Shown here: one piece after another, positions 1,765-4,898 of the stretch
How the letters are laid out: every line of letters begins with the position of its first letter
How positions within the stretch are numbered: the first letter of the stretch is position 1
NCBI GenBank assembly: GCA_944324915.1
Contig: CALUYD010000014.1
Coordinates: 1 to 44,769, forward strand
Source: Candidatus Gastranaerophilales bacterium
GTDB lineage: Bacteria > Cyanobacteriota > Vampirovibrionia > Gastranaerophilales > Gastranaerophilaceae
Length of the DNA stretch: 44,769 bases
Reading direction: 5' to 3'
Position numbers and translations under genes: made by a program
The notes under the pieces: generated by a model
Seen by the model: only the letters and a program-made list of their open reading frames with translations
What the model was told of the DNA's origin: nothing
Databases searched by the model: none

Positions 1765-2673
1765 CTAATTTATATTTTCTAGTTTTTCAATTACTGCTTT
1801 AATTATCGAATCAGGAGTTGAAGCCCCTGCAGTTACGCCAATATTTTGAGCTTTTAAAATTTTATCTTTATAATTTTCAAGCTCGTTTTGGTTTTCGATA
1901 TGAATTGTTTTTGTTATCTTTTGAAGAATTTGTGCTAAATGTGTTGTATTTGCACTTTTTTTAGAGCCTACAACTACCATTAAATCTGATTCTTTGCCTA
2001 ATTTTTTTGCTTCTTCTTGCCTTAGAGTGGTTGATGGGCAAATTGTATTTTGAACTCTTAAAATTTTACATTTGCCTGATAAATAATTAATTACTTCTAA
2101 TAAATATTCTTTTGTTTGGGTGGTTTGCAAGACTATTCCTATTTTTTTTGAATTTTTTATTTTTTCTTCAACAGATTTTAGTGTTTCAAGATTTTGCGCT
2201 ACAAAAACATTTTCTTTATTTTTTGCACAATTTTTAGCATTTGTATATATTGCGATTACTTCCGGATGATCATTTTTTCCTAAAATAATTACAAAATATC
2301 CCTCTTTAACCATTTCAACCGCTTTTTGCTGAACTTTTTTAACATCAAAGCATGTTAGATCAACTAATTCATATCCCTTATTTTCGATTTCTTTAAAAAC
2401 TTCATCGCTTTCACCATGGCTTCTTATAATGCAAATACCCTCTCCTTTTTGAGGAAGGTTTGTGATAGTTTTTATGCCAAGATTTTCTAATTCAGAAGTA
2501 ACATGTGAATTATGAATTAATTCACCTAATACTGAAACTGTTTTATTTGGATTTTCTTGTTTGATTTTTTTTGTTGTGTCGACTGCTCTTTTGACACCAT
2601 AGCAAAAACCTGCGTTTTTGGCTAATTTTATTGTTCTTTTAATGGTCTTGAACCAACTTTCTTTTAAAGTCAA
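1765..2673 (-). CDS. ispH: 4-hydroxy-3-methylbut-2-enyl diphosphate reductase (IspH/LytB)
   Basis: IspH carries out the last step of the MEP isoprenoid pathway, reducing HMBPP to IPP and DMAPP with a 4Fe-4S cluster. The three cluster cysteines are visible: C24 (NAGFCYGVKRAV), C108 (DLTCFDVKK) and C212 (NTICPSTTLRQ). The proton-donor glutamate in HPE (E138), the QTT motif near 183-185 and the GSKKSANT substrate loop are also present. Length (302 aa) is typical, though about 14 residues precede the usual IKLAKNAGFC start, so the true start could be slightly downstream. The presence of the MEP pathway fits a bacterial host. First gene of a unit with rpsA. Confidence 0.95.
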   Translation of the reverse strand: MTLKESWFKTIKRTIKLAKNAGFCYGVKRAVDTTKKIKQENPNKTVSVLGELIHNSHVTSELENLGIKTITNLPQKGEGICIIRSHGESDEVFKEIENKGYELVDLTCFDVKKVQQKAVEMVKEGYFVIILGKNDHPEVIAIYTNAKNCAKNKENVFVAQNLETLKSVEEKIKNSKKIGIVLQTTQTKEYLLEVINYLSGKCKILRVQNTICPSTTLRQEEAKKLGKESDLMVVVGSKKSANTTHLAQILQKITKTIHIENQNELENYKDKILKAQNIGVTAGASTPDSIIKAVIEKLENIN

Positions 2674-2752
2674 TATTTATTAAATATTGCTAAGAATATT
2701 TAAACACAAACATTTTTTTAGTACAATATAAATATATTTTTTTGGAGTTGAA

Positions 2753-3385
2753 ATGGAATTTAATGATAAAGAGCCTAAAAATAGTATTTTGTATTGGTCT
2801 AAACGACTTTATCAAAAGGGCATGAGTCCGGCTACGAGCGGAAATATTTCTATTAAAACACAAGACGGTATCTTAATTAGCGCAAGTGGGACTTGTCTTA
2901 ACGATATGGATGAAAATGACATTGTTCTTATCGATTATAACGGCAATGTCAAAGAGGGATCTAAAAAACCGTCTAGCGAAAAAATCATGCATAGCGAAAT
3001 TTATACAAGACGAGATGATATAAACGCTATAATTCATTGTCATTGTCCTGTAATTACTGCTTTTGCAGTTGCGAGCGTTCCTATTAAAAAACCGATATTG
3101 CCTGATTTTGCTCTATTGTATGATGAAATTCCATTAGTTCCTTATTTTTGTCCATCGAGTATAGAATTAGCGCTAAAGGTGGGTGAAATTTTTGAAAAAA
3201 ATGATGTAGCATTATTAAAAAACCATGGTATTGTTCTTGGTGATACCTCTTTGCAAAATGCGTTTTATAAATTAGAATTAATTAGAACTTACGCTGAAGC
3301 TTATTTTGGAGCAGAAGTTTTAGGCGGAGCTAAGGCGTTATCCAAAAAAGCGGTTAATGAGATTAAAAAATTATATAGAAAGTAA
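2753..3385 (+). CDS. Class II aldolase/adducin family protein
   Basis: The 210-residue protein has the fold signatures of the L-fuculose-phosphate aldolase / methylthioribulose-1-phosphate dehydratase family: the phosphate-binding SGNIS (about 30-34), SASGT, the PSSEKIMH segment with the likely catalytic Glu, zinc ligands in HCHCP (His at about 95 and 97), and KNHGIV with the third zinc His (about 158). Members cleave or dehydrate short sugar phosphates with Zn2+; the substrate cannot be read from sequence. A GGAG ribosome site precedes ATG 2753. It is followed after 12 bp by a ThiC-like gene, so the two are probably one operon and may act on related compounds. Confidence 0.85.
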   Translation: MEFNDKEPKNSILYWSKRLYQKGMSPATSGNISIKTQDGILISASGTCLNDMDENDIVLIDYNGNVKEGSKKPSSEKIMHSEIYTRRDDINAIIHCHCPVITAFAVASVPIKKPILPDFALLYDEIPLVPYFCPSSIELALKVGEIFEKNDVALLKNHGIVLGDTSLQNAFYKLELIRTYAEAYFGAEVLGGAKALSKKAVNEIKKLYRK

Positions 3386-3397
3386 TATGGAGAATAT

Positions 3398-4609
3398 ATG
3401 CCAACTCGTATTTTAAATGCTCAAATGGCTAGAATTACCGATGAAATGAAGCAAGTTGCTAAATTAGAGGGCGTTAGCGATAAATTTATTAAAGATTCGC
3501 TTGCGCTTGGTAGAGTTGTTATTCTAAAAAATAAACTTAGAAAAAAGACAACCCCAATAGCAATAGGTAATGGGCTTAGAACTAAAGTGTGCACTGCTTT
3601 AGCAGTAAATGAAAATAAAGAATCTTTTGAACTTGAAACAGATAAATTGCGAGTTGCGCAAGTTACTGAAGTTGATTGCATTTTTGATATAACTGCAAGT
3701 TCATATATTAAAGAAATAAGACAAAATATTTTATCTAATTCTTTTATTCCTGTTGGAACAAATCCATTTTTAGAGGTTGGCTATAAAGCAATTAATAATA
3801 GCGATGAATTAGATAATATTACAAGTCAAGATATGCTTGATATTGTTGAGCAACATTGTCGTGATGGCGTTGATTTTGTGTCTTTAAATTGTACTCTTAC
3901 AAAATCATTAGCTGAGCAATATGTTTCTCAAGGCAGACTATCTCAAATTACAACCAGAGGAGCTCAAGTATTATTTGATTGGATTGAAAAACACCAATGT
4001 GAAAATCCATATTATGAAAGATTTGATGAATTGCTCGATATATTAGCTAAATATGATGTTGTACTACATTTAGCTTGTGCTTTTAAAAGCGGAAGTATTT
4101 CAGATTCTTTTGATTTGCTTCAAATGTCAGAATATTCAACAATGGGCGAATTAACTAGAAAAGCCTTAGCTAAAGGTGTTCAAGTGATGTCTGATGGAAT
4201 TGGACATGTTTCAATAGATAAAATTCCTTCTCTTGTTAATTTAATTAAAGAAATTAATTTGCAAGTGCCTTTGTTTGTTTCATCTGCTTATGCTTGTGAT
4301 TGCGCTATCGGATATGATAATATTTCATCATCTATTGCAGGCTCAATTGCAGCTTCAAGTGGTGCTAATTTATTAAATGTTACTGCTAATGTTGATTTTT
4401 TGATGCCAAGCACAACCGCTCAATTAAGAGAAGGGATAATTAGCACAAAAGTTGCTGCTCATTGCGGCGATGTTGCAAAGAGTAATCCTGATGCAATTAA
4501 GAGAAATTATAAAATATCTTTTGCAAGAAGAAATAAAAATTGGAAAAATATCGTTAAAAACTGCATAGATAAATCAGTTTTCGAGGGTGTTGACATTAAA
4601 AAAAGATAA
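3398..4609 (+). CDS. ThiC-family protein lacking the C-terminal radical-SAM cysteine motif
   Basis: Most of the 403 residues follow phosphomethylpyrimidine synthase (ThiC): an N-terminal TRILNAQMARITDEM segment, GNGLRTKV, the barrel motifs NPYYERFDELLDIL and ELTRKALAKGVQVM, GIGHV, GYDNISSSIAGSIAA, and REGIISTKVAAHCGDVAK. Canonical ThiC converts AIR to HMP-P and ends with a CxxCxxxxC motif that holds a 4Fe-4S cluster for radical-SAM chemistry. Here the protein stops just before that region; only isolated cysteines remain near the end, and the bases after the stop do not encode the motif in any frame. GYDH of typical ThiC is GYDN. It therefore probably does not do standard ThiC chemistry. It is paired with a class II aldolase. 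Real function unknown. Confidence 0.8.
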   Translation: MPTRILNAQMARITDEMKQVAKLEGVSDKFIKDSLALGRVVILKNKLRKKTTPIAIGNGLRTKVCTALAVNENKESFELETDKLRVAQVTEVDCIFDITASSYIKEIRQNILSNSFIPVGTNPFLEVGYKAINNSDELDNITSQDMLDIVEQHCRDGVDFVSLNCTLTKSLAEQYVSQGRLSQITTRGAQVLFDWIEKHQCENPYYERFDELLDILAKYDVVLHLACAFKSGSISDSFDLLQMSEYSTMGELTRKALAKGVQVMSDGIGHVSIDKIPSLVNLIKEINLQVPLFVSSAYACDCAIGYDNISSSIAGSIAASSGANLLNVTANVDFLMPSTTAQLREGIISTKVAAHCGDVAKSNPDAIKRNYKISFARRNKNWKNIVKNCIDKSVFEGVDIKKR

Positions 4610-4614
4610 TTAAT

Positions 4615-4643
4615 TTGACCTTGGTATAAACTTTTAATATAAT
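4615..4643 (+). promoter_or_regulatory. Sigma70-type promoter giving an apparently leaderless mRNA
   Basis: TTGACC (4615-4620) and a perfect TATAAT (4638-4643) are separated by exactly 17 bp. The start codon at 4650 is six bases beyond the -10 box, at the expected transcription start, and no Shine-Dalgarno sequence lies between them. Confidence 0.75.
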
Positions 4644-4649
4644 TAGTTT

Positions 4650-4898
4650 ATGCAACCGCTAATTTCAATTGATGATGTAGAAAATTTAATTAATGAGATT
4701 ATAACTGATCTTCCTAAGTGGAGAAAGGACATGATTCATTATATTAAAGATGAAAACCCCGAGTTAAATACTGCAATAATTGAGCTGTCACAAAAAACAG
4801 ATTTAGAACCAAAAGCGCTTGCAACAGGAGCTTATATGGCTTATAAACTTCTTGAAAATCAAAATAGTGAAGATTTTGTTGATTTTGAAGAAGAATAA
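4650..4898 (+). CDS. Small acidic protein of unknown function
   Basis: This 82-residue protein is acidic and predicted helical, ending in EDFVDFEEE. I see no recognisable family motif, signal peptide or membrane segment. It has its own strong promoter (4615-4643) positioned so that the message would start at or next to the ATG, and it is followed 36 bp later by a kinase gene that also appears to have its own promoter. Codon use matches its neighbours, so it is probably a genuine resident gene. Confidence 0.65.
   Translation: MQPLISIDDVENLINEIITDLPKWRKDMIHYIKDENPELNTAIIELSQKTDLEPKALATGAYMAYKLLENQNSEDFVDFEEE

Follow-up and report, generated by a model that had tools for sequence, protein, structure and literature searches.

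Described relatives of the ThiC barrel

The closest described relative of the protein considered here is ThiC, the phosphomethylpyrimidine synthase, for which structures are available from AtThiC (4s25-4s29) and CcThiC (3epm and 4s2a). The ThiC paralogues BzaA, BzaB, and BzaF, which belong to benzimidazole synthesis, are likewise radical enzymes. The AtThiC structures assign roles to individual residues: Asp383 contacts N3 of AIR, His426 and His490 are the ligands of the metal that anchors SAM, and a tethered cluster domain extends into the neighbouring subunit (PMC4389238). Another parallel comes from pseudoenzymes (PMC10211241), in which the fold is kept, the catalytic residues are lost, and the gene is conserved; among those of vitamin pathways is plant PDX1.2, described as a regulator of vitamin B6 biosynthesis (PMC6829848). 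In the literature searched, of which coverage was partial, no published description of a cluster-less ThiC was found.

A gene of this kind lies in the window, that is, the whole stretch of 44,769 nucleotides that was analysed (contig CALUYD010000014.1 of assembly GCA_944324915.1, Candidatus Gastranaerophilales bacterium). All of the evidence presented below is computational, and the organisms are MAGs. We consider it reasonably likely that the gene is the thiC of a lineage without thiamine synthesis, whose protein has been kept for a non-radical job, most likely as a pseudoenzyme.

The thiC locus

The window genome, 99.98% complete in 36 contigs, contains a single ThiC match. It is encoded on the + strand at 3398..4609 and has 403 aa, predicted to form a complete ThiC (beta/alpha)8 barrel without the Cys tail. 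An intact class II aldolase gene (FucA-like, 210 aa) precedes it on the same strand at 2753..3385, its stop codon lying 12 bp from the ThiC-like start as first recorded, and 2753-4609 spans both genes. To the left is a divergent gene on the - strand (1765..2673), which we take to be IspH-like, with an S1-like gene in the same flank. To the right, both on the + strand, are an 82-aa ORF without a Pfam match (4650-4898) and a gene for a uridine-kinase-type protein (PF00485, 4935-5786). These constant flanks are common to the canonical thiC loci of the genus. Since the genome has no other ThiC and the ThiC-like gene shares its flanks with those loci, the gene is the ortholog of thiC. The initial annotation had called it a paralogue, which is wrong, and had proposed a search for a separate canonical thiC; none is present. 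The ORF between thiC and the uridine-kinase-type gene is itself conserved across the genus at 82-88 aa, without any Pfam match.

Two promoter-like sequences, recognised purely by consensus match, border the gene pair on the + strand. One (TTTAAA and TACAAT, 17 nucleotides apart) lies upstream of the aldolase gene at 2699..2727, and the other (TTGACC and TATAAT, likewise 17 apart, 11/12 consensus positions) directly follows the ThiC-like gene at 4615..4643. The second candidate suggests that the next genes form a separate unit, and together the two fit a probable two-gene operon with the aldolase first.

A ThiC barrel without its cluster tail

PF01964 covers residues 3-394 of the ThiC-like protein (1e-107), corresponding to profile positions 1-390 of 420. 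What remains unmatched is the cluster tail at the C-terminus: the protein ends before the CX2CX3-4C motif and has none of its three cysteines. In relatives from the family this motif takes the form CX2CX3C (CTMCGSYC), not CX2CX4C. The original reading of a protein that tracks the ThiC barrel and stops short of the cluster cysteines is therefore accurate, as is its report of GYDN in place of GYDH (aa 305-308, 4310..4321, + strand). No separate copy of the Cys-tail DNA pattern was found in any frame across the window genome. Scores against the NCBIfam equivalogs of ThiC fall below the cut-offs (PRK13352, 353.5 vs 410; TIGR00190, 317.4 vs 460). The protein resembles the Bza proteins in being ThiC-derived, and it scores 340.5 bits against TIGR04386 (BzaB), but this is far under the cut-off of 700 and, unlike them, it has no cluster ligands. 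Archaeal ThiC matches at 32-35% identity were considered as cluster-less relatives and rejected, being cysteine-bearing ThiC.

An AlphaFold2 model built from 26 sequences (pLDDT 93.4, pTM 0.92) predicts with confidence that the protein keeps the complete ThiC barrel. The best structural matches of this model in the PDB are ThiC proteins, with Z scores of 48-56, followed at a Z of about 20 by glutamate mutase and further proteins. The match to AtThiC extends over residues 1-403 (Z 56, rmsd 2.0, 30% identity). The likeness to ThiC thus covers predicted fold, locus, and ancestry, whereas the cluster tail is missing and the active site differs at most of the positions examined.

Residue roles were taken from the AtThiC structures (PMC4389238), with numbering counted along the 4s25 alignment. 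The window protein departs from canonical ThiC at 13 of 16 ligand or metal positions examined, or at 16 of 19 when the three cysteines are included. From canonical to window, the changes are N228A, G230A, L259I, Y286L, H322N, S342T, D383C, R386K, E422D, Y449F, H464N, E489D, and H490F; R343, G344, and H426 are retained. The AIR-binding set N228, Y286, H322, S342, D383, R386, and E422 accordingly reads A, L, N, T, C, K, and D, the canonical Asp383 being Cys at codon 227 (4076..4078, + strand). Of the two SAM-anchoring metal histidines, His426 is kept and His490 is Phe at codon 334 (4397..4399, + strand). The histidine of GYDH was also considered as a metal ligand and rejected, as it is His464 along the AtThiC alignment, whereas the metal is bound by His426 and His490.

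Asp383 and His490 are lost in all 14 altered ThiC proteins identified, including two, from genomes G084 and G165, that retain the cysteines. Their loss despite intact cysteines suggests that AIR and SAM-metal binding disappeared before the cluster. The window protein shares the replacements Leu286, Asn322, Lys386, Asp422, Phe449, Asn464, and Asp489 with its cluster-less relatives in G156 and G148, together with the retained His426. Other altered lineages carry different replacements, with no common new site.

Thiamine pathway and distribution of altered ThiC

Among 28 genomes of the genus, all 12 that encode ThiG also encode a canonical ThiC (CTMCGSYC). The 16 genomes without ThiG encode either an altered ThiC ORF (10/16) or no ThiC at all (6/16). 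In a 146-genome sample of the family, true ThiG and full ThiE accompany canonical ThiC only, the two exceptions being G045, which has a ThiE-like match and no ThiC, and a MAG of 57% completeness. The window genome has no ThiG, and its ThiE is a 144-aa remnant occupying the locus at which a canonical relative encodes a 341-aa ThiD2-ThiE fusion. It is consequently very unlikely that thiamine is made de novo along the known bacterial route. Two further markers were uninformative in the 33 genomes surveyed, canonical ones included: no TPP riboswitch was found upstream, and thiamine pyrophosphokinase, a marker of auxotrophy, was absent from 33/33.

A broader survey of 383 family and 382 class genomes placed altered ThiC only in the genera g1 (10 copies), g3 (2), and g39 (2). 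The remaining full-length ThiC proteins almost all score 585-660 bits, the exceptions being fragments split between contigs and a short Cys-bearing type in three genomes. As the altered gene passes the PF01964 threshold, annotation by that domain alone would wrongly score these gut bacteria as makers of the thiamine pyrimidine.

Constraint on the altered protein and alternative explanations

The ThiC-like gene is under strong purifying selection rather than decaying as a pseudogene. Compared with its 86%-identical, cluster-less counterpart in G156, the window gene yields an omega of 0.018 by pairwise maximum likelihood (GY94; likelihood ratio 404 against omega = 1); as dS approaches saturation, the profile interval of about 0.01-0.03 is to be used in place of the point value. 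The two genes differ at 113 codons synonymously and at 56 nonsynonymously, and at 55 of 123 fourfold sites. The altered pair from g39 gives a dN/dS of 0.10, and the aldolase one of 0.014. At similar dS, canonical ThiC pairs show a lower dN than altered pairs, from which it follows that constraint on altered ThiC is relaxed relative to canonical ThiC, while still far from neutral.

All three members of the window clade agree at 10 of 16 pocket positions, vs 63% for the whole protein. Conservation in this clade is 0.70 in the top loops, on the catalytic face, and 0.61 in the helices; canonical triples of similar overall identity reach 0.82 in the top loops and 0.97-1.00 in the barrel strands. 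The catalytic face has lost its special conservation, which favours a non-catalytic role and still leaves room for a remodelled pocket. The protein is thus probably non-catalytic or equipped with a remodelled pocket. Loss of the catalytic residues, with selection and the predicted fold both kept, is what is expected of a pseudoenzyme. The parallel with PDX1.2 has a limit: with the other parts of its old pathway lost, the ThiC-like protein cannot be serving it.

A new non-radical enzyme, in which the barrel has been re-tooled for another small molecule, perhaps one that the adjacent aldolase uses or produces, is an unlikely alternative. Strong purifying selection would be expected of it, and the replacement set fixed in the window, G156, and G148 proteins, the retained His426, and the somewhat higher conservation of the catalytic-face loops over the helices all point the same way. 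Against it, the pocket is not specially conserved, the other altered lineages have differing replacements, and the phosphate-binding residues are largely lost. The chemistry on a sugar phosphate or nucleotide-derived compound that the initial annotation had envisaged is accordingly unsupported, the AIR/phosphate site being largely dismantled.

Slow decay, in which the gene is a relic of thiC whose frame is open only through recent loss, is quite improbable. The long branches of the altered lineages, their nonsynonymous divergence above that of canonical pairs, and the disappearance of the gene from six ThiG-less relatives are what such decay would leave behind. The dN/dS of about 0.02, however, was obtained between two copies that are already cluster-less and differ at nearly half of their fourfold codons, and a simulated neutral frame of 403 codons stayed open in only 4.5% of runs at 0.05 hits per site, whereas 14/14 altered copies are open. 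Random truncation followed by decay, which had been named as a possible refutation of a retained function, was thus not seen.

It is very improbable that the protein is one half of a split ThiC still making the thiamine pyrimidine with a cluster domain supplied by another protein: the tethered domain that reaches into the partner subunit (PMC4389238) makes supply in trans conceivable, but the genome holds neither a second ThiC match nor the Cys-tail pattern, the residues for AIR, SAM, and metal have also been lost, and ThiG and full ThiE are absent. An assembly or sequencing artefact, be it MAG misassembly in a genome fragmented into 36 contigs or the frameshift raised at the outset, has a negligible chance of being correct, because an independent contig (L032) from a related-species MAG (Candidatus Gastranaerophilales) carries the same gene at 86% identity with the same neighbours, ending likewise in FEGIDIKKR without the cysteines, a cluster-less version at 67% identity is encoded in a third genome (G148), and the Cys-tail pattern occurs nowhere in the window genome in any frame.

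The reading as a retained non-radical protein, most likely a pseudoenzyme, agrees with the part of the initial annotation that had proposed a non-radical descendant of ThiC: the gene is intact, strongly selected (about 0.02), and the only thiC of its genome.

Evolutionary history

A single clade of cluster-less members, for which the initial annotation had proposed a tree, is not supported; the altered genes occur in at least three genera (g1, g3, and g39), apparently having arisen separately. In the ThiC tree most altered copies fall together on long branches with low support. In the aldolase and flanking-gene trees the altered copies are interleaved with canonical lineages, on a poorly supported within-genus backbone. 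Genus g3 is well separated from g1 by ThiC; the ThiC branch of g39 is very long and poorly placed, and the g39 aldolase does not group with that of g1. The clade of the window, G156, G148, and G146, with G165 as its sister, is well supported, and, since G165 retains the cysteines, the cluster was lost within it.

Following the loss of the thiamine pathway, the first changes would have removed AIR and SAM-metal binding (Asp383 and His490), at a stage when the cysteines may remain, as in G084 and G165. The cluster tail would have been lost later, leaving a barrel without radical chemistry that is most likely a pseudoenzyme. One genus holds a natural series, from an intact radical-SAM ThiC, through proteins with their cysteines but without AIR and SAM-metal contacts, to a cluster-less protein under strong selection, in which the order of dismantling and reuse of a radical enzyme can be studied directly. 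We propose only tentatively the wider picture of a radical-SAM enzyme that was dismantled stepwise and repeatedly, in three genera or more, and became a constrained protein without radical chemistry, with a new function tied to the aldolase operon and with ThiE shrunk and kept in parallel.

Within the window clade, G148 (L152) and G146 (L153) are sisters according to their flanking genes (98). According to ThiC, G148 is instead the sister of the window and G156 (100), with identities of 67% vs 41%. The conflict suggests that either the cluster-less gene was transferred or recombined or evolution accelerated in G146.

The class II aldolase neighbour

The neighbouring aldolase, of ordinary sequence, matches PF00596 (3e-43), retains the zinc-binding and catalytic motifs PSSE, HCH, and NHG, and aligns to 4c25 and related fuculose-phosphate aldolases. 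It belongs by fold family and motifs with the FucA-type class II aldolases (4c25, 1fua), but unlike them it falls below the cut-off of every specific NCBIfam equivalog.

All 14 altered ThiC copies lie directly downstream of this aldolase gene. From the 12-bp spacing in the window, the initial annotation had deduced a shared pathway. The same adjacency is found beside canonical ThiC in g1, g36, g26, and g37, so that the linkage is older than the loss of the cluster and does not define a new function; the aldolase itself is family-wide, being present in 136/146 genomes, most of them without ThiC. It was therefore rejected as the marker of a pathway specific to cluster-less proteins.

As a guess at how the protein most likely works, the folded barrel would serve the aldolase of the operon as scaffold or ligand-binding partner, for example in a complex or by tuning it. 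This guess draws its sole support from gene adjacency and from the survival of altered copies at aldolase-linked loci only, an association that is phylogenetically confounded across the three genera. Against it, the aldolase occurs in most ThiC-less genomes, including G145 of the same genus (80% identity), and does not generally need a ThiC-like partner. Against the wider reading of a retained pseudoenzyme, the six ThiG-less genomes of the genus without a copy indicate a function dispensable in some lineages, and the slight excess of conservation in the catalytic-face loops leaves room for a remodelled active site. At the G145 locus (L138, 7434-8373) the aldolase gene is followed after a 37-bp gap by an ORF of the 82-aa type, a clean absence of thiC.

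Other ThiC-like and ThiE-like proteins

The short ThiC-like type with cluster cysteines (CTMCGxFC) was found at L117 7779-9478, L157 7803-9535, and L158 2208-3940. The G245 and G274 contigs that bear this type may be contaminants. The copy in G010 carries D383A and Y449R. The type is always paired with a protein of 185-202 aa, which in G010 has no Pfam, PADLOC, or PHROG match, and the pair is found in islands that also carry restriction-modification, helicase, integrase, or HTH genes.

A similar reduction affects ThiE in many ThiG-less genomes, ThiC-less ones included, where the protein lacks the ThiD2 domain and some of the barrel. The reduced ORFs have 144-216 aa (L139 5635-6069, on G000 contig C7; L149 2831-3283; L167-L182) and share a core motif, ..LC..F...FII..R.DIA....ADG..L....ID...AR.ILG...IIG. 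Their dN/dS values range from 0.005 to 0.19, point values obtained at saturated dS, and all are far below 1.
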